Both the position numbers and the translations under genes were made by a program. This document shows positions 3,891 to 50,899 of a stretch of DNA of 64,000 nt, piece by piece. The notes under the pieces are model-generated. The model ran no database searches. It saw only the letters and a list, made by a program, of their open reading frames with translations, and had not been told where the DNA came from. Positions within the stretch are counted from its first letter, which is position 1; each line of letters opens with the position of its first letter. The DNA comes from Gammaproteobacteria bacterium (lineage in GTDB: Bacteria; Pseudomonadota; Gammaproteobacteria; Xanthomonadales; SZUA-36), in NCBI GenBank assembly GCA_024277815.1, contig JAJRUM010000020.1, forward strand, positions 62,001 through 126,000. Reading direction: 5' to 3'.

Positions 3891-4283
3891 TGTACCTCTG
3901 CTTACGCCTTCCATATCGTTCATTCCTGCAACCACCCGGCTTAAGGTAAGGATAGTACGCCCGCGATGTTATAACCAGAGATTCGCAGGCGGCTGTATAA
4001 TTCGCTCGCGCATTAACTTCAACTTAACGCCAGCCAAGTATTATTTATTGATGGGAAACACTTTCTATAGTGCCAGCAACAGGCCCGGGCTGGTCCATTT
4101 TTCTTACAGTCCTGGAGTCAAAGGTGATCTGCAACGATTTTTTGATGACATTACACCTGAATTTGGTTGGACCACCCGGTACGGTACTCAGGTAAAATGT
4201 GTCTGGGTGCTGGTTATCGCTGCTTGTGGATGGAAATAGACATGCAGGTGATGAGCCCCATATTGAAGCTACCGGAATTAGTA

Positions 4284-6541
4284 TGAGACGTTTTATCAGT
4301 AAAGTTGTGCGTCTGGCTATCGCGTCACAACTCGCATTCGCCTGCGCAATAATACAACCTGGCGGGAGCGTCAATGATCAGGCATTGCTGCAGAATCAGC
4401 GCACCGCGAGTGGCGTTCTTGATTTACAGGAACTGGCTGAAATTGACGTACTGGTCAAACTGGATAACCCGCATCTTTCCCGGCAAATCGCCGCTGGACT
4501 TAAGGCTCAGGCCTCCGCAACCGGCGACTTTTATTTTCGCAAACTTAAGATACAGTTTGGTGGGCAGTTCATAGCCCTGCAGGCCTCCGTCAATATTGCG
4601 GACAATACCGGTACTGTCATCAACGCCTCGGTAGCGGGTGACATATTGCTCGACTACAGCAATAACCGGCTGGTGTGGTTTCCACTTTTCAGCCAATTAC
4701 AAATCAGATCTACTGAATTCTCATTTGAAAACCAGTTTTACGAAGCAGCCACAACTGAGTTGAACGCTACGGTATTACAGCGCCTCAATGCTGACATTAC
4801 CAATACTCTGGTGCTTTATGGCAACAATGTCATCCCGCTGGAAGCAGTACCATTGGCTGAGGTTCAAGTCGGCACATCCCTGCCCGGTTTGGGCAGTGCT
4901 GTGGCCAGTCACTCGCAGAAATTGAATGGCGTCTTTGTAGTGGCCGCCAGCGCAATGTTGATTGAAACCGGTGTCACCACCATTGCCCTGGACATGAACT
5001 TCATTCCCGACCTGTCCACCTGCCCCGCTGATATTGAAGTGTCCAGAGCAGTGTTTGCCATGGATGTAGTCGCGAGGGAACCTGTAGGCCTGGCTCACAA
5101 CATGACCGGTTCGGATAGCCTGCATTACTTCTATTCAGAGATCTCCGGTGCCAGGCGACCGATGACAATCATCCACTACTGGTTTGCGGATGGGCAACCA
5201 ATAGCCGTTGAAGAACTTGCCGTTGGCCCAAGTGAGCGCTGGAGGACCTGGTCTGCCAAAGGCTTTGCCAGTCCGGGGGCTTCGCATTGGGAGGTCCTCG
5301 TGGTTGAAAAGGAATCGGGTTGTATTTTGCGTTCCCAATCCATCCGCACACTGGCTCCGGAGTTGCTGGTTCCGTCAAATATCGAAGTTGACTCATATTC
5401 TGCTTTTGCAGATCTGCGCGCTGCATTTAACACCCGAATCGACCGTTTTCCAATTAGCTCAAACACCCCGAAAATTGCCCTTATCGAAATCAGGCGACCT
5501 TTTCTCCAGGATGTATTCAAGTTATCTGTTGCTGACTTACACATAGAAGCAGCGTTTGACAAGGATGCCCTGTCAAAACTGCAGTTTGGTGCGCAGATGC
5601 TGCCATTTGAAACCCGCGACATTGTCTGCGAGCAGCGCAGTTGTCCTCCCCCTCGTGTTTGTGTCGCGCAGGTTACGCAGTGTAAACGGCTCAGGGATAC
5701 GCGCGACTGCTCATCATGCCTTTTTTACAACCCCTTGAATAACCGCTGTGTCAGCCAGGCCATTGACCCTATTTGTGAAGCCGTTCGTAACCGTCACAAT
5801 ATCAAGTACACGGCCGACCGCGCGGCCTGTATTGCAAATACAACGGCCAGCAAGCTGGATTGCGAACAGTTAAATACCCAAGCTGCACGCAGTTGCGAAA
5901 TTGAATCCGGGATTGAAGTATCTGCCTGTGAGAGTGTCAAGACAGGCATTGAAGCACTCACGGTGCTGGCCTCAGTCCATGCGAACACAAGCACCCGGGG
6001 GGTGCTCAGTGCGGTGTTCTCAAGGTTCAGAATCGAAGATGATTTTTCCCGCCTCAAAATGGATATGTCGCTGAAGTCCGACCTGACAGTCACGGGCCAG
6101 TTGGAATTCGAGCCTGGCAAGATTCCAACACCGCTGCGTGCGTGCATCAACGCCTGGAGCGTTCCTTTTACCAGCCGTGCAGTGGCTGTAAGTTCCGCCA
6201 ACAGCATTCTTACCACAATCGAAGTAGGCAAAACTGCCCTGACTGCAAACTGGTCCGGGTTTGCCATGCCTCTGAGCATGACACCCTCTCCATTGGAATC
6301 GGTCTTTGTCAACAACCCTCAACTGTTGGCCAACTGTGGAATTGGGTTAACCGTCAAGAAGGTCGCGCAGGTAATTGCAGGCGACGATGCAGAGTTTTTT
6401 TCCGGGCAAATGAAACTGGACGTTCAGCCATTGCCTACCGTCATAAAATTATCCCCGGCCACAGTGACCTACGGCAGTCATAACTTTAGCGCAGAGGCCG
6501 TGCTGGGTGAAAACTACCTGAGGTATGACATCGGCAGATAA
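4284..6541 (+). CDS. hypothetical exported protein with an embedded DUF2914-like segment and a Cys-rich region
   Basis: Long ORF; likely start MRRFISKVVRLAIASQLAFAC; segment YFYSEISGARRPMTIIHYWFADGQPIAVEELAVGPSERWRTWSAKGF...HWEVLVVEKESG resembles DUF2914. Confidence 0.65.
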
Positions 6542-38963: not shown

Positions 38964-40502
38964 ATGCAAACCCGACAGGACAATTCAAAAATCAAACTGG
39001 CAGCACTGATCGTTGCTCCGCTGATCAGCCTGGCGCTGGTGTTGTTCGCAGACCTTGCCCCGGAAAATCCAAAAATCGCCTACACACTGGCCATTGCAAT
39101 CGTGATGGCAGTTTGGTGGATTACAGAAGCCGTTCCGCTTGCGATAACAGCATTGTTGCCGGTGGTACTTTTCCCACTGCTCGGCGTGGTCGATGGCAAA
39201 ACCATTTCTGCCATGTACTTCAATCATCTGATTTTCCTGTTTATCGGCGGCTTTCTGATGGCGCTGGCGATGCAACGCTGGGATTTGCACAGGCGTATCG
39301 CAATCAAGATATTGATATTCTTTGGGATCAGCCCGGGCAGAATCCTGATGGGCTTCATGTTCGCTACCGCGTTTCTTTCCATGTGGATGTCGAACACGGC
39401 CACCACCATGATGATGGTTCCTATCGCGCTATCGATCATCTACAAGCTTGAAGAAATCGTAGGCAAAGCCAAACTGGGCACTTACTCGGTTGGCCTGCTG
39501 CTGGGCATCGCCTATTCTGCATCCATTGGCGGCGTGGCAACGCTGGTCGGCACACCGCCCAACCTTTCATTCGCCCGTATTGCCAACATCATATTTCCGG
39601 CCATGCCCGAGATTTCATTTGCCGACTGGCTGGTGTTCGCTGCCTGGATAACTTTCTTTATGTTCATAGCTGCCTGGCTCCTGCTGTTTGCCATGTACCG
39701 GCCAAAACAACCGTGGGTGGGCGTGGAACGGGATGATTTCAGGAAAGAGTATCAACTCCTTGGCAAGGCCAAGCCTGAAGAGAAAATTGTTTTTGTTCTG
39801 TTCGTCACAATGGCGCTGTTATGGGTGTTCAGGTCAGGGTTCCAAATAGGGTTTATCGACATACCCGGCTGGTCACAATTGTTTGCCAACCCCGGGTTCA
39901 TCAATGATGGAACCGTCGCAATAACGATTGCCATCATCCTGTTTGCTATTCCATCCAAAACCCGCAAGGGTGAAAGGTTGATGGACTGGGAGACCGCCAA
40001 CCGCTTGCCCTGGCATATCGTGCTTCTGTTTGGCGGTGGCTTCGCACTGGCCAAGGGCTTTGTTGATTCCGGCTTATCTATCTGGTTCGGTGAGCAGTTG
40101 TCCGGCCTGTCAGGGACCCACCCGATGGTACTGACATCTGTGATCGTAACCATGATGTCTTTCCTGACCGAACTGACCTCCAATATTGCCAGCACTGAAA
40201 TGATTCTTCCAATTCTCGCGGGCATGGCTGTCAGCATTCAGGTCAACCCGCTCTTGCTGATGATACCGGCGACCCTGGCAGCATCGCTGGCCTTCATGTT
40301 ACCCGTAGCCACGCCACCCAATGCCATCGTTTTCGGCAGTGGCTACATCCAAATCAGGCAGATGGTCAAGACCGGCTTCCTGCTGAACTTCGTTGGCATT
40401 ATTGTTACCACCCTGGTCACTTACTTTTGGGGAGTACTGGTGTTCAAAATTGACATTGGCAGTTTTCCCGACTGGGCGACGACCATGATTGGCAACGGCT
40501 GA
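38964..40502 (+). CDS. SLC13/DASS family sodium:anion symporter
   Basis: WWITEAVPLAITALLPVVLFPLLGV; MWMSNTATTMMMVPIALSI; TELTSNIASTEMILPIL; LPVATPPNAIVFGSG. Confidence 0.93.
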   Translation: MQTRQDNSKIKLAALIVAPLISLALVLFADLAPENPKIAYTLAIAIVMAVWWITEAVPLAITALLPVVLFPLLGVVDGKTISAMYFNHLIFLFIGGFLMALAMQRWDLHRRIAIKILIFFGISPGRILMGFMFATAFLSMWMSNTATTMMMVPIALSIIYKLEEIVGKAKLGTYSVGLLLGIAYSASIGGVATLVGTPPNLSFARIANIIFPAMPEISFADWLVFAAWITFFMFIAAWLLLFAMYRPKQPWVGVERDDFRKEYQLLGKAKPEEKIVFVLFVTMALLWVFRSGFQIGFIDIPGWSQLFANPGFINDGTVAITIAIILFAIPSKTRKGERLMDWETANRLPWHIVLLFGGGFALAKGFVDSGLSIWFGEQLSGLSGTHPMVLTSVIVTMMSFLTELTSNIASTEMILPILAGMAVSIQVNPLLLMIPATLAASLAFMLPVATPPNAIVFGSGYIQIRQMVKTGFLLNFVGIIVTTLVTYFWGVLVFKIDIGSFPDWATTMIGNG

Positions 40503-44926: not shown

Positions 44927-45092
44927 AGTAGGCGGAATACTACTGATGAATATCAAAGTTTACACGTGTTCTCGCAGAATTCACTGGAATAAATAACAAA
45001 CCGGATGTTCAGGCAATAAAAAACAGCCCGACCCCCGCCAGGACCAAAGTGGAAGCTCTTTGATCCTGACAGGAGCCAGCTGTTATTCGAAG

Positions 45093-45863
45093 CTAGTCGA
45101 TGCGCGTAGCAACAACCTTCTGGAACAGGTCACCGAAACGGGGTTCTTTACGCCAGGTGAATTTCTCTGGCTGGTCTGCCAGGTCTTTGATTTCGTTGCG
45201 CCACAAGCCCTTTGCAAAAGGCTCGAGCGTATCAAACACCAGGCTGGTAATGGGCTTAAGCGGATGCCACCAACGCGGCTTGTGGTAATCGACAAATACC
45301 ACCTTGCCACCCGGTACAACCTTGCTCAAAAACAGGTTCACCGCTTCGCGCTTGTAGGTGTCGGGCAGCTCGTGCAGCAAGAAGTAGCAGCACACGGTAT
45401 CAAAAGGCTCAAGGTCCATTTCCAGCACATTGCCGTAGTGCACCGTGGCGTTCGGGTAAGCGGCCAGCTTACGCCGCGTATTGACAACCTGTATCTCTGC
45501 TACATCAAAGACATCAAGCGTTCCTCCCGGGCCAATATGCTCTGCCAGGTTGGCCGAAAAACTGCCGTAGACACAGGCCGATTGCAGCACTCTCTGGCCA
45601 GCCTCAATTTCCACAAAAGCCGAGTTCTGCAGCTTGCGGTGCTGTTGCCAGAGGATCGTTCTGACCACAAATTCACGATCCAGAAGTTTTACGTTACGCG
45701 GGTTGATATAGGCCCAGTAGTAGACATCCTGCAGATAGTCCGGAACTTCGGGTACAGCGGCGACAGGTGCCAGTGACACGGGGGGATTTTCTGTTTGAAC
45801 CCCGGCCGACACCGCAGTCCGGAAGGACGTAGCTGGTGTGCTGGAACGCGCGACATTACTCAT
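45093..45863 (-). CDS. rquA: rhodoquinone biosynthesis methyltransferase-like protein RquA
   Basis: PDYLQDVYYWAYINPRNVKLLDREFVVRTILWQQ...RVLQSACVYGSFSANLAEHIGPGGTLDVFDVAEIQVVNTRRKL...YFLLHELPDTYKREAVNLFLSKVVPGGKVVFVDYHKPRWWHPLKPI; the xxACVYG replacement of the usual SAM motif I matches RquA as I recall it. Confidence 0.82.
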   Translation of the reverse strand: MSNVARSSTPATSFRTAVSAGVQTENPPVSLAPVAAVPEVPDYLQDVYYWAYINPRNVKLLDREFVVRTILWQQHRKLQNSAFVEIEAGQRVLQSACVYGSFSANLAEHIGPGGTLDVFDVAEIQVVNTRRKLAAYPNATVHYGNVLEMDLEPFDTVCCYFLLHELPDTYKREAVNLFLSKVVPGGKVVFVDYHKPRWWHPLKPITSLVFDTLEPFAKGLWRNEIKDLADQPEKFTWRKEPRFGDLFQKVVATRID

Positions 45864-46073
45864 GGTTCTTACCCTCTCCAAAGGTGCGTACAAGGTACGC
45901 CAGTTATTAAATCATGCCGCCAGACGCTATCCGCCATAACAGCGAAGAATTATTATTTAAGGGATGAATACCGGCCTTTTTACAACACATATCCAGATCG
46001 CTTCTTATCAGCCGGTGCGGGTACCTCCTTGTCCGTGTTGGATGCACTCTACCTGTAGCAAATGCCAGCGGCA

Positions 46074-46087
46074 ATGATCTATGTCAA
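46074..46087 (-). promoter_or_regulatory. degenerate FNR/Anr-like site upstream of rquA
   Basis: Minus strand TTGAC-ATAG-ATCAT (8/10 defined positions of TTGAT-N4-ATCAA), 7 nt beyond the ubiT stop. Confidence 0.35.
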
Positions 46088-46093
46088 CTATGT

Positions 46094-46582
46094 TTAACCC
46101 TTGTTTTGCAGCCTCTGAATCACCAGGCTTACGCTTTGCAAAAGTTTCCGCAATGGTACTGGTAAATCGTCCCAATCCATGCCGTCCATGGTGTTTTTTA
46201 CACCCAGACCGAGCTCGGTATCACCCTCAACCCGAATTCTTCTCTGGAAGAAAAGCGTGTCAGGATCTGCCTGTCTGGTAGCCAGCAAAATAAAGTCCGG
46301 GCTCTCGCCACTGATACAAACATCAGCCTCAAGTTCCCGGTCGATTGGCGTAAAGCGGTCACTGCCAACATTGATCAACCAGTCCACACACAGGTCAGCG
46401 ACTTTGATCCTCACTTTGGCACCTTCCAGAAAGTCCAGTTCGCCCTGTTTCAAGGGTTCCCGGAAAGCCTGGTTGAGAACGACCGCTAACACCTGTTTCT
46501 GGGCTGCATAGGGGATGAGTCGGCCGGGTAGTCCTACAACTTTTTTAGCAATAGGACGAACATAGTCGGTGATACTTGGCAT
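46094..46582 (-). CDS. ubiT: SCP2 sterol-binding-domain protein UbiT (O2-independent ubiquinone biosynthesis accessory factor)
   Basis: 162 aa; GAKVRIKVADLCVDWLINVGSDRFTPIDRELEADVCISGESPDFILLATRQADPDTLFFQRRIRVEGDTELGLGVKNTMDGMD; divergent from ubiU. Confidence 0.9.
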   Translation of the reverse strand: MPSITDYVRPIAKKVVGLPGRLIPYAAQKQVLAVVLNQAFREPLKQGELDFLEGAKVRIKVADLCVDWLINVGSDRFTPIDRELEADVCISGESPDFILLATRQADPDTLFFQRRIRVEGDTELGLGVKNTMDGMDWDDLPVPLRKLLQSVSLVIQRLQNKG

Positions 46583-46610
46583 AAGGTGACTCTAAGCGGA
46601 AAGAGAGATC

Positions 46611-46616
46611 AGTATA
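46611..46616 (-). promoter_or_regulatory. -10-like hexamer for ubiT
   Basis: TATACT on minus strand, 21 nt from edge of FNR box. Confidence 0.6.
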
Positions 46617-46637
46617 TTTCCTCATTCCAGCAATGTA

Positions 46638-46651
46638 TTGATACAGATCAA
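46638..46651. promoter_or_regulatory. FNR/Anr box, perfect consensus
   Basis: TTGAT-ACAG-ATCAA between divergent ubiT and ubiU starts. Confidence 0.9.
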
Positions 46652-46672
46652 TGTGAGGATATTTTCTCCAAC

Positions 46673-46678
46673 TAGAAT
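46673..46678 (+). promoter_or_regulatory. -10-like hexamer for ubiU
   Basis: TAGAAT on plus strand, 21 nt from edge of FNR box. Confidence 0.6.
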
Positions 46679-46709
46679 GTGTTGCCAATACCCGCAAACT
46701 GGAATAACT

Positions 46710-47705
46710 ATGGAACTGGTGTGCCCTGCGGGGAACCTGCCCTCATTAAAAGCTGCTATTGATAATGGTGCTGATGCTGTATACGTTGGCTTCAAGGACG
46801 ATACTAACGCCCGACATTTTACCGGCCTGAACTTCACTGAGCGTACATTTGAAAAGGCCGTTCGCTATGCACAGGATAAAGGCCGTAAGGTTTTTGTCGC
46901 CATCAACACCTGCCCGCAGCCCAACGGCTTCAAGCGCTGGCAGGCTGCCGTAGATCAGGCTGCCGAATACGGCGTAAATGCACTGATCCTTGCAGATATA
47001 GGTGTCTTGGATTATGCCAGCGAACGCTGGCCGGACCTGCGCCTGCACCTGTCAGTACAGGCCTCGGTTACCAGCGCAGAAGGCATCGGCTTTTACCATC
47101 AAAACTTTGCTATCAAACGGGTTGTTCTGCCCCGGGTGCTGTCAGTGAGTCAGGTCGCACATGTCATTACCGAATCACCCGTGCCAGTCGAAGTGTTTGG
47201 CTTTGGCAGCCTTTGCGTGATGGTAGAAGGCCGTTGCCTGCTATCGAGCTACGCAACCGGTCGCTCGCCCAACACCTATGGTGCCTGCTCACCAGCCTCT
47301 CACGTCCGCTGGGAAGAAACCCCGGATGGCACCAATACAAGGCTCAACGGCGTACTGATCGATCACTATGGGGAAGGTGAAAAAGCCGGCTACCCGACGC
47401 TTTGCAAGGGTCGCTTCCAGGTCGGCGAAAACACATACTATGCGCTCGAGGAACCTACCAGCCTCAACACCCTGTCAATCCTGCCTGAACTGCAAAGAAT
47501 CGGCGTCAGCGCGATAAAAGTCGAGGGGCGGCAGCGCAGCCCGGCCTATGTCGCACAAGTCACCGCGGTCATGCGGGCAGCCATTGACCACTGCATGACA
47601 GATGCCGAAGGCTATCAGCCAAAAGATCAGTGGATGCAGGAACTGGCCAGCGTTTCAGAGGGCTCGCAAACCACCCTCGGCGCATACCACCGGCCCTGGC
47701 AATAG
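46710..47705 (+). CDS. ubiU: U32-family protein UbiU (O2-independent ubiquinone biosynthesis)
   Basis: MELVCPAGNLPSLKAAIDNGADAVYVGFKDDTNARHFTGLNFT; GSLCVMVEGRCLLSSYATGRSPNTYGACSPA...PTLCKGRF, the UbiU cysteine pattern C-x6-C-x16-C...C. Confidence 0.93.
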   Translation: MELVCPAGNLPSLKAAIDNGADAVYVGFKDDTNARHFTGLNFTERTFEKAVRYAQDKGRKVFVAINTCPQPNGFKRWQAAVDQAAEYGVNALILADIGVLDYASERWPDLRLHLSVQASVTSAEGIGFYHQNFAIKRVVLPRVLSVSQVAHVITESPVPVEVFGFGSLCVMVEGRCLLSSYATGRSPNTYGACSPASHVRWEETPDGTNTRLNGVLIDHYGEGEKAGYPTLCKGRFQVGENTYYALEEPTSLNTLSILPELQRIGVSAIKVEGRQRSPAYVAQVTAVMRAAIDHCMTDAEGYQPKDQWMQELASVSEGSQTTLGAYHRPWQ

Positions 47706-47714
47706 GCAGCCACG

Positions 47715-48149
47715 ATGATGAAACTGTCTATTGGGCCAATTCAGTATTTCTGGGACCGCCAGCGCGTTCTGGATTTCTATCAGCAGGCAGCCGACAGCGC
47801 TGCAGAGATCGTTTACCTGGGTGAAGTTATCTGTTCCAAGCGACGACTGATCAAGTCTGCGGACTGGATCGCAATTGGCAATGAACTCAGGCAAAGCGGC
47901 AAACAGGTCATCCTGTCCTCCCTGACCCTGCTGGAAGCTGCTTCCGAGATGGGCAGCCTGAAAAAACTCTGCCGCAACGATGCCTTCATGGTAGAGGCCA
48001 ATGACATTTCAGCCGTGCAATTACTATCTGCGGCGGACAGAGATTTTGTCACCGGCCCAAGCTTCAACATCTATAATGGCCGAAGCCTGCAGTTACTGGC
48101 ACGCAAGGGCCTGAAGCGCTGGGTTCTGCCGGTAGAGCTTGGCCTATAA
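47715..48149 (+). CDS. ubiV: UbiV N-terminal part, terminated by in-frame TAA (interrupted ubiV)
   Basis: MKLSIGPIQYFWDRQRVLDFYQQAADSAAEIVYLGEVICSKRR...KRWVLPVELGL*; same reading frame as 48162..48635. Confidence 0.85.
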   Translation: MMKLSIGPIQYFWDRQRVLDFYQQAADSAAEIVYLGEVICSKRRLIKSADWIAIGNELRQSGKQVILSSLTLLEAASEMGSLKKLCRNDAFMVEANDISAVQLLSAADRDFVTGPSFNIYNGRSLQLLARKGLKRWVLPVELGL

Positions 48150-48161
48150 ACACTAAAAGAC

Positions 48162-48635
48162 TTGCAGTCACAGCGGCCTGAGGGGATGGAAACAGAAGTA
48201 TTTGCCCTCGGACGTCTGCCGCTCGCCTATTCGGCCCGTTGCTATACCGCACGTTCGCACAACCTGCCCAAGGATGATTGCCAGTTCAAATGCCTCGACT
48301 ACCCCAACGGTCGTATGCTGGAAACCCGGGAGGGTCAGGAGTTTCTTGTTCTCAACGGAATTCAGACGCAATCTGCCCTGACCCACCAGGTACTGGAGCA
48401 GCTACCGGAATTGCAAGCACTGGCTGTCGATGTACTTAGAATCAGCCCCCAATATTCCGGCACCATGAAGATTATTGAGCTCTTCGATGCCGCCCGTTCA
48501 GGTGGTGATTTGGGCTCACTGAGTAAGAAACTACTTACTTTGCTGCCTCTGGGTGCATGTAATGGCTACCTTGTCGAGCAGGCAGGGATGGATTTTGGAG
48601 CAGAGGTCCCCCATGACACTCAACAAGCTGTTTGA
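48162..48635 (+). CDS. ubiV: UbiV C-terminal part, in frame with 47715..48149 after the TAA
   Basis: METEVFALGRLPLAYSARCYTARSHNLPKDDCQFKCLDYPNGR...LNGIQTQSAL (C-x12-C-x3-C); no strong start/RBS of its own, so likely one interrupted gene. Confidence 0.8.
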   Translation: MQSQRPEGMETEVFALGRLPLAYSARCYTARSHNLPKDDCQFKCLDYPNGRMLETREGQEFLVLNGIQTQSALTHQVLEQLPELQALAVDVLRISPQYSGTMKIIELFDAARSGGDLGSLSKKLLTLLPLGACNGYLVEQAGMDFGAEVPHDTQQAV

Positions 48636-50127
48636 TCACCATCGCCGTCAGATGAACAGAAAAGCCTGGGGCGATTTACGCCAGTTTTCCGATGAGCTAC
48701 GGGCAAGTGGCCAGCTGATATCAGTGCCACAGGCGGTTGCGCCAGAACTCCAGGTCACAGCTTTGTGCCACCGCAGCCTGGTAAATGAAGGCCCTGCCCT
48801 GTGGTTTGAAAACCTGAAAGGTTTTGACATGCCCGTGCTGGGCAATCTTTTTGGCAACCAGCAAAGAATCCTCGCTGCACTCGAACTGGACAGCCGGCAG
48901 GCACTACGTGAACTGGGCCAGGAACTTGCTTTTCTCAGAAACCCGCACTTGCCCGACAGCCGGCAGTCAGCACTGGATTCCGTACCAGGATTTGCGAAAC
49001 TGGCGCACGTCACACCCAAAAAGATGGAAACGGCCCCGTGGCAGGAACATGTTATTGAAGGCCCCGATGTTGACCTCGAAATTTTGCCGGTCTCAACCTG
49101 CTGGCCCGAAGATGCCGCACCCCTGGTTACCTGGGGTATGGTCATTACGCGCGGGCCAGACAAACCACGGGTCAATCTGGCCATCTACCGCCAGCAGGTC
49201 ATTGGCAAAAACAAGCTGATTATGCGCTGGTTGGCTCACCGCGGGGGCGCGCAGGATTTCCGTGAGTTTCAGCAGGCTAACCCGGGCAAACCCTTTCCGG
49301 TTTCAGTCGTTATCGGTGCCGACCCGGCAACCCTGCTGGCAGCCGTAACACCAATACCGGACACCTTGTCGGAATACCAGTTTGCCGGCCTGTTACGGGG
49401 CCGCCGCAGCAAGGTGGTCAAATCCAGTTTGACAGGACTGCCCATTCCACACGGCGCTGAAATTGTGCTGGAAGGGCATATTTATGCTGATGAAACGGCC
49501 CTTGAGGGCCCGTTTGCTGATCACACCGGATACTATAATTCCTGCGCAGAGTTCCCGGTTTTCACTGTCGAGCGTATCAGCCACCGCAGCGACCCGGTGT
49601 ACCTGACCACCTACATGGGTAAGCCGGGGGAGGACGAACCCTCAATCATGGCATCAGCCCTCAACGAGATGTTCATACCCCTGTTGCAAGAGCAGTTCCC
49701 GGAAGTCGTAGATTTTTATCTGCCACCCGAGGCGTGTTCCTACCGCGTCGCCATCGTCAGTATCCGCAAACATTATCCAGGCCACGCGCGCCGAATCATG
49801 TTTGGTATCTGGTCATGGCTACGCCAGTTCACTTATACCAAGACCATCATCATCACAGATGAAGATATTAATATACGCAACTGGAAAGAAGTGATCTGGG
49901 CCATTTCAACGCGCGCCGATCCGGTACGGGACACCGTGCTGGTGGAAAACACACCCATCGACTACCTGGATTTTGCCAGCCCCCGACCCGGACTGGGCGG
50001 TAAAATGGGCATTGACGCCACCAATAAAATTGGCTCAGAAACTGATCGTGAGTGGGGTCGCATCGCCAGCGTGGACAGCACCACAAAAGAAGCAGTGGAA
50101 CAGATTGCACAGGCACTGGGACTCTGA
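48613..50127 (+). CDS. ubiD: 4-hydroxy-3-polyprenylbenzoate decarboxylase (UbiD)
   Basis: ISTCWPEDAAPLVTWGMVITRGPDKPRVNLAIYRQQVIGKNKLIMRWLAHRGGAQDF; GADPATLLAAVTPIPDTLSEYQFAGLLRG; DHTGYYN; overlaps end of ubiV. Confidence 0.95.
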   Translation: MTLNKLFDHHRRQMNRKAWGDLRQFSDELRASGQLISVPQAVAPELQVTALCHRSLVNEGPALWFENLKGFDMPVLGNLFGNQQRILAALELDSRQALRELGQELAFLRNPHLPDSRQSALDSVPGFAKLAHVTPKKMETAPWQEHVIEGPDVDLEILPVSTCWPEDAAPLVTWGMVITRGPDKPRVNLAIYRQQVIGKNKLIMRWLAHRGGAQDFREFQQANPGKPFPVSVVIGADPATLLAAVTPIPDTLSEYQFAGLLRGRRSKVVKSSLTGLPIPHGAEIVLEGHIYADETALEGPFADHTGYYNSCAEFPVFTVERISHRSDPVYLTTYMGKPGEDEPSIMASALNEMFIPLLQEQFPEVVDFYLPPEACSYRVAIVSIRKHYPGHARRIMFGIWSWLRQFTYTKTIIITDEDINIRNWKEVIWAISTRADPVRDTVLVENTPIDYLDFASPRPGLGGKMGIDATNKIGSETDREWGRIASVDSTTKEAVEQIAQALGL

Positions 50128-50179: not shown

Positions 50180-50899
50180 GTGCGTTACCCTACGCGCATG
50201 CGACCATCGAAACCCGACACCCGTCAACACGACCCTGCACTGGTATCCACAGCCGCTGAAATTGGTGATTGTGCCCTACTGAAAGCCGTAAATGTGACCA
50301 AAGCCGGTACTTTCATGCAGTGGCGCGACGGGCAGGATTTGCTGGTACCCGTCAGTCAGCAGGTTTCGCCGATGGTTGCGGGAGAGTCATATATTGTCTA
50401 CCTGCTACTCGATCCACAGCAGCGTGTTATCGGCAGCAGCAAGCTGTACAAATTCCTGGATGAACGCGCCAAAAATATGTCGCCAGGTGAGCAGGTGGAT
50501 TTACTGATCGTGGGTAAGACAGATCTTGGCTATAAAGCTGTAGTCAACGGTACACACCTGGGCCTGCTGTACAAAGATGAAGTCTTCCAGCGCCTGCAGA
50601 CAGGCGACAGGGTCAAGGGTTATATCAAAACGATACGGGATGACAGGAAAATTGATCTCGGCCTGCAACGACAGGATGACAAAGCACGCTCGGAACTGAC
50701 AGGCCGCATCCTTGAATTCCTCAGCAAAAATGGTGGCAGCTCCACATTGACTGACTACAGCCCGCCGGAGGCTATTTATAAGCGCTATCAGGTCAGTAAG
50801 GGCAACTACAAAAAAGCCTTGGGCTCGCTCTACAAACAGCGCCTGATCAGCGTCTCAAAAGACAAGATTGAGCTCGTTTCAGCAGCTGATTCCAAATAG
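50180..50899 (+). CDS. CvfB-like S1 RNA-binding-domain protein
   Basis: NVTKAGTFMQWRDGQDLLVPVSQQ; ...FQRLQTGDRVKGYIKTIRDDRKIDLGLQ; winged-helix C-terminus. Confidence 0.88.
   Translation: MRYPTRMRPSKPDTRQHDPALVSTAAEIGDCALLKAVNVTKAGTFMQWRDGQDLLVPVSQQVSPMVAGESYIVYLLLDPQQRVIGSSKLYKFLDERAKNMSPGEQVDLLIVGKTDLGYKAVVNGTHLGLLYKDEVFQRLQTGDRVKGYIKTIRDDRKIDLGLQRQDDKARSELTGRILEFLSKNGGSSTLTDYSPPEAIYKRYQVSKGNYKKALGSLYKQRLISVSKDKIELVSAADSK

Follow-up and report, generated by a model that had tools for sequence, protein, structure and literature searches.

A stretch of 64,000 nt (the window) from the draft genome G000 (2.98 Mb, 77 contigs, 93.8 % complete) was analysed, and five genes were identified at positions 45093–50127: rquA, of the rhodoquinone synthase family, and ubiT on the minus strand, and ubiU, ubiV and ubiD on the plus strand. 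Each of the five matched an NCBIfam model. A preliminary description of this DNA had reported that rquA was clustered here with ubiT, ubiU, ubiV and ubiD (ubiTUVD); this clustering was confirmed and was found to recur in four other genomes of the same family whose RquA is of the window type (type A). The gene set was as described for rquA, ubiT, ubiU and ubiD, which are intact, but ubiV is interrupted by a TAA codon that had been overlooked. The features of the locus were as follows.

45093–45863, minus strand: rquA, type A, rhodoquinone synthase family, 256 amino acids (NF038261, 289.8 bits, cut-off 175)
45030–45077, minus strand: strong terminator-like hairpin directly after rquA, a 20-pair stem followed by a T-rich tail (pattern match only)
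46094–46582, minus strand: ubiT, SCP2-domain accessory factor of O2-independent ubiquinone synthesis (NF047962, 141.6 bits, cut-off 46.9)
46638–46651, no strand: FNR-type box TTGATACAGATCAA in the spacer of the divergent ubiT and ubiU (consensus match)
46710–47705, plus strand: ubiU, 4Fe-4S O2-independent hydroxylase subunit (NF047963, 553.3 bits, cut-off 440)
47715–48635, plus strand: ubiV, interrupted open reading frame (halves with 188.9 and 171.5 bits against NF047965)
48147–48149, plus strand: in-frame TAA stop at ubiV codon 145 (from the translation; Asp/Glu codons in relatives)
about 48652–50127, plus strand: ubiD, decarboxylase of the prenylated flavin mononucleotide family (TIGR00148, 498 bits, cut-off 245)

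The rquA product was matched by NF038261 over profile positions 1–218 of 218, and its best score with any UbiE/MenG hidden Markov model (HMM) was 37.8 bits. A generic UbiE/COQ5 methyltransferase at 45093–45863 was ruled out on these scores (290 versus at most 38 bits). The sequence of motif I is VLQSACVYG in the window RquA and VLDLAGGTG in E. coli UbiE; the replacement of Asp by Gln and of Gly by Val in this motif is a signature of RquA (PMC7813818), and the window protein has both the Gln and the Val. A tree reconstructed from 96 RquA proteins without a UbiE outgroup placed the window type within RquA with starred support, and the separation of the window protein from UbiE rests on the HMM scores. 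The assignment of this gene to RquA in the preliminary description held in the HMM comparison and in motif I and agrees with its position among RquA in the tree. Neither a solved structure close to RquA by sequence nor plasmid-borne relatives of rquA were found when these were sought.

UbiT, UbiU and UbiV and the anaerobic need for UbiD have been described previously (PMC6747719). Cys169, Cys176, Cys193 and Cys232 of the window UbiU have numbering identical to that of the cluster ligands of E. coli UbiU (PMC6747719). The UbiD product scored 676 bits with the PRK10922 equivalog model, under its strict cut-off of 788, and was over the cut-off of the TIGR00148 subfamily; in a TIGR00148 search of G000 (E <= 1e-60), ubiD was the single match in the genome. 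The box TTGATACAGATCAA, which lies upstream of ubiTUV, is the sole perfect FNR consensus in the 64-kb window, and a perfect or one-mismatch FNR box was present at or in the ubiT–ubiU spacer of most related loci, with none found in G001.

The distribution of RquA was surveyed in 39 genomes of an uncultured Xanthomonadales/Lysobacterales-like family; the named relatives with matching contigs are metagenome-assembled genomes labelled Gammaproteobacteria, Xanthomonadales or Lysobacterales. RquA homologues were sorted into types A, B, C and D, each of which formed one clade in the tree of 96 proteins. Type A was found inside the ubiTUVD locus in G000, G001, G005, G012 and G026, in two arrangements, either next to ubiT or after ubiD. 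Type C, a divergent RquA-like protein with 144–150 bits (under the NF038261 cut-off of 175) and an N-terminal transmembrane helix as read from the sequence, was encoded convergently to ubiT in the ubiTUVD locus of G024, G027, G029, G030 and G031; its motif I has CAFG in place of CVYG (e.g. L052:9110–9916, L053:7710–8579 and L056:9440–10246). The neighbours of type C, read as ribokinase-like and nucleoside hydrolase-like, gave no clue to an operon partnership. Type D, another clade under the cut-off, was found in G036, G037 and, in part, G038. The combinations of RquA per genome were A with B (six genomes), C with B (five) and A with D (two). Occurring with type A in two arrangements in five genomes, and with type C in five more, the linkage exceeds chance. 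A gene for UbiU was detected in 14 of the 39 genomes; type A or C was present in 12 of these 14, compared with three of the 25 without ubiU (Fisher P = 8e-6, with genomes counted as independent and complete).

The inclusion of UbiD in the module, as proposed in the preliminary description, was upheld: all 14 genomes with ubiU had a ubiD orthologue and none of the 25 without ubiU did so, distant UbiD-family proteins in a few of the latter being counted as non-orthologues. In E. coli without ubiD, some ubiquinone is still made when O2 is present, but none when it is absent (PMC6747719). Since ubiD occurs only with ubiU, and given this phenotype, the ubiD of the family looks like a part of the anaerobic ubiquinone route, and O2-dependent ubiquinone synthesis in the members without ubiU probably uses another decarboxylation route. 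As a separate observation, ubiD of L045 (G012; 4175–5652) appears as two overlapping reading frames, which suggests a frameshift or an assembly error.

RquA was also sought outside the family, in 398 genomes of the phylum, 398 of the order and 369 of the class. Nearly all genomes with rquA were single-copy, the exceptions being G262 and G484 (the latter 7 % contaminated). The rquA and ubiU genes were not linked in any of the 52 outside genomes that possessed both, in which they lay on separate contigs or, where they shared a contig, were 700 kb or more from each other; linkage as a general trait of Pseudomonadota was thereby rejected. No ubiT, ubiU, ubiV or ubiD was present within up to 9.5 kb around approximately 80 outside rquA genes, some of these stretches being limited by contig ends. 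In the surveyed genomes the linkage is thus confined to this family (five genomes with type A and five with type C), so that the survey of rquA neighbourhoods for ubiTUV suggested in the preliminary description gave a positive result within the family only. Several outside genomes have frd genes adjoining rquA, a type of association that has been published (PMC5953543). L167, L168 and L169, from other families of the order, encode RquA with 172–177 bits beside frdABCD, and the NF038261 cut-off of 175 splits this clade.

G000 encodes a second RquA, of type B, on contig 21 (36138–36866; L058:8133–8909), which scored 294 bits, over the cut-off, and is approximately 46 % identical to the window protein over the aligned part. 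It lies directly downstream of frdABCD, as it does in most family members that have type B. FrdA and FrdB exceeded the curated quinol:fumarate reductase cut-offs; FrdC and FrdD matched their families, FrdC under its cut-off. Type A grouped with a protein of G414, from outside the class, and with the single-copy RquA of Rhodocyclales (Zoogloea); the single-copy RquA with which type B grouped were others. A recent duplication within the family that gave rise to types A and B was ruled out, a constrained A + B grouping being rejected by the approximately unbiased (AU) test (P = 0.0005), and the two copies are therefore of separate origin. Several relatives without ubiTUVD retain the frd-linked type B.

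Searches for a menaquinone route in the 39 family genomes gave no MenA over the cut-off and no MqnA or MqnD, on which menaquinone as the quinone of the fumarate reductase was rejected, leaving rhodoquinone as the only candidate low-potential quinone for FrdABCD. The proposal in the preliminary description that rhodoquinone serves fumarate reduction agrees with this result, but it had overlooked the RquA in the frdABCD operon, because of which it is not evident that the fumarate reductase is served by the ubi-linked copy. Nor is the module self-contained, as had been suggested: other ubi genes lie elsewhere in the genome, and two O2-dependent UbiH-family (UbiH/UbiI-type) hydroxylases are encoded together on contig 42 of G000, so that ubiquinone can probably also be made with O2.

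Two neighbouring genes were noted. A DASS-family sodium-coupled anion symporter, possibly a fumarate/succinate carrier, is predicted at 38964–40502 of the window, approximately 5 kb from the locus. Directly after ubiD, at 50180–50899, lies a gene for a protein read as S1/CvfB-like, which no NCBIfam model matched.

The locus is interpreted as an FNR-controlled anaerobic quinone locus, at which ubiquinone would be made without O2 and a part of it aminated to rhodoquinone for fumarate reductase; this is considered probable, though far from certain. The interpretation draws on the models that were over their cut-offs, the recurrent linkage, the conserved FNR box, the tie of ubiD, and of type A or C, to ubiU, the lack of MenA and Mqn proteins and the adjacency of frd and RquA genes. 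Without O2, UbiD would decarboxylate the prenylated precursor and UbiT, UbiU and UbiV would perform the hydroxylations, while shared Ubi enzymes would come from genes elsewhere in the genome. RquA would then replace a methoxy group with an amino group from S-adenosylmethionine (SAM) in some of the ubiquinone, giving rhodoquinone (for the chemistry, see PMC9814641), and rhodoquinol would pass electrons to the dedicated FrdABCD fumarate reductase, the operon of which ends with the second RquA. A division of labour between the two copies, by conditions or by complexes, is probable, with one tied to anaerobic ubiquinone synthesis and the other to fumarate reductase; the frd-linked RquA is also encoded by family members without ubiTUV.

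Several observations weigh against this interpretation, among them the state of ubiV in G000. Its frame is broken by TAA at codon 145, where eight relatives have an Asp or Glu codon and an intact frame. Read across the stop, Cys40, Cys176, Cys189 and Cys193 of UbiV fit the CXnCX12CX3C cluster motif (PMC6747719), and the TAA parts Cys40 from the other three. As assembled, G000 could not, judging from the translation, make intact UbiV; if the stop is real, the locus would not support anaerobic ubiquinone synthesis in this genome, and the claim for G000 itself is weakened. Given the Asp/Glu codon of the relatives, a single base change suffices for the stop, and a recent mutation and a single-base error of the draft assembly are both possible. 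The locus might accordingly be decaying in G000, with ubiV a fresh pseudogene, ubiquinone made only with O2 and rquA either a leftover or acting on aerobic ubiquinone. The splitting of the UbiV cluster ligands, the presence of the UbiH/UbiI-type genes and the relatives that lack ubiTUVD yet have frd-linked RquA would fit such decay, which is nevertheless held to be a possibility rather than a probability, as a single base differs in an otherwise intact frame, ubiT, ubiU, ubiD and rquA are intact, and a draft-assembly error explains the stop equally well.

The active site of the window RquA and the distribution of type A must also be set against an anaerobic quinone locus. The protein has Asp120 at the position of D118 of R. 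rubrum RquA and Asn145 at that of D143; Asn occupies the latter position in every aligned type A protein of the family, and the D118A/D143A double mutant of R. rubrum RquA was dead (PMC9814641). In addition, three family genomes have type A with no ubiU detected. Type A may no longer be a plain rhodoquinone synthase, type B making the rhodoquinone and types A and C having taken on another substrate or function in anaerobic ubiquinone synthesis. Such a change would account for two RquA homologues at two loci per genome, for the Asn in place of Asp143, for the occupation of the same locus by the divergent type C, under the cut-off and with its N-terminal helix, in five related genomes, and for type B without ubiU in several genomes. 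It is regarded as unlikely, since type A scores far above the RquA cut-off and retains the motif I signature, and since its companions in the tree are single-copy RquA from Rhodocyclales and from one genome outside the class; moreover, Asn at the D143 position is also found in E. coli UbiE and in the type D clade, and so does not exclude SAM binding. A related proposal, conceivable but doubtful, is that the family keeps two functionally distinct RquA from different clades, a frd-linked one and a ubi-linked one that either has a changed substrate or acts on the ubiquinone leaving UbiTUV, the ubi slot of the sister species being held by a membrane-anchored type C. That rquA and the ubi genes are neighbours only because one ancestor happened to have this gene order, without functional meaning, appears very improbable: every case does lie within one family, type A and ubiU of G037 and type C and ubiU of G033 are on different contigs, and the 52 other genomes with both genes have them unlinked, but type A occurs in two locus arrangements and type C in a third, and within the family types A and C go together with ubiU.

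Rhodoquinone synthesis needs ubiquinone just when the O2-dependent hydroxylases stop. Under the favoured interpretation of an anaerobic quinone locus, the linkage of rquA to ubiTUVD and the tracking of ubiU by ubiD suggest selection for the joint making of substrate and product. With two RquA clades in one genome, it becomes directly testable whether RquA proteins are interchangeable or specialized for different quinone pools.

Compared with the R. rubrum-type RquA (NF038261), the window protein is alike in being over the cut-off along the whole profile, in its Gln/Val motif I and in its retained ribose-binding Asp, and differs in the Asn at Asp143, in its ubiTUVD setting and in the second RquA, of another clade, in the same genome. 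According to Stairs et al. (2018), the two RquA groups of their study did not occur together in any of 182 organisms (PMC5953543); here there are two RquA clades in one genome, types A and B not being equated with Groups A and B of that study. The type B gene after frdABCD is an instance of the association of rquA with complex II published there, whereas rquA was not found near other candidate quinone biosynthesis enzymes in that study and adjoins ubiTUVD here. In a 2026 survey, the known range of rhodoquinone grew to 24 orders (PMC13386864). The main texts searched contained no description of an rquA gene inside a ubiTUVD locus, nor of a bacterium carrying RquA from two clades.

The ubiTUV genes have been described as compact, FNR-linked loci (main text of PMC11707229). 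The window shares with such loci of E. coli and other Pseudomonadota the position of ubiT beside ubiUV, the upstream FNR-type box and the UbiU cysteine positions; here, ubiD and rquA join the locus, and in G000 ubiV has a stop. The paradox of rhodoquinone and O2 raised in the preliminary description had already been answered in print, the same main text reporting that 73 of 84 genomes with rquA also have the O2-independent ubiquinone pathway and that Magnetococcus marinus, with this pathway only, makes rhodoquinone, as determined by mass spectrometry. The metabolic logic is the same in the Magnetococcia, which lack the O2-dependent pathway, whereas G000 has UbiH/UbiI-type hydroxylases; no linkage of rquA to ubiTUV is described in the passages of that main text that were consulted. 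The co-occurrence of rquA and ubiTUV had been published and its metabolic logic is known; the second RquA was unexpected, and the gene arrangement appears to be new.

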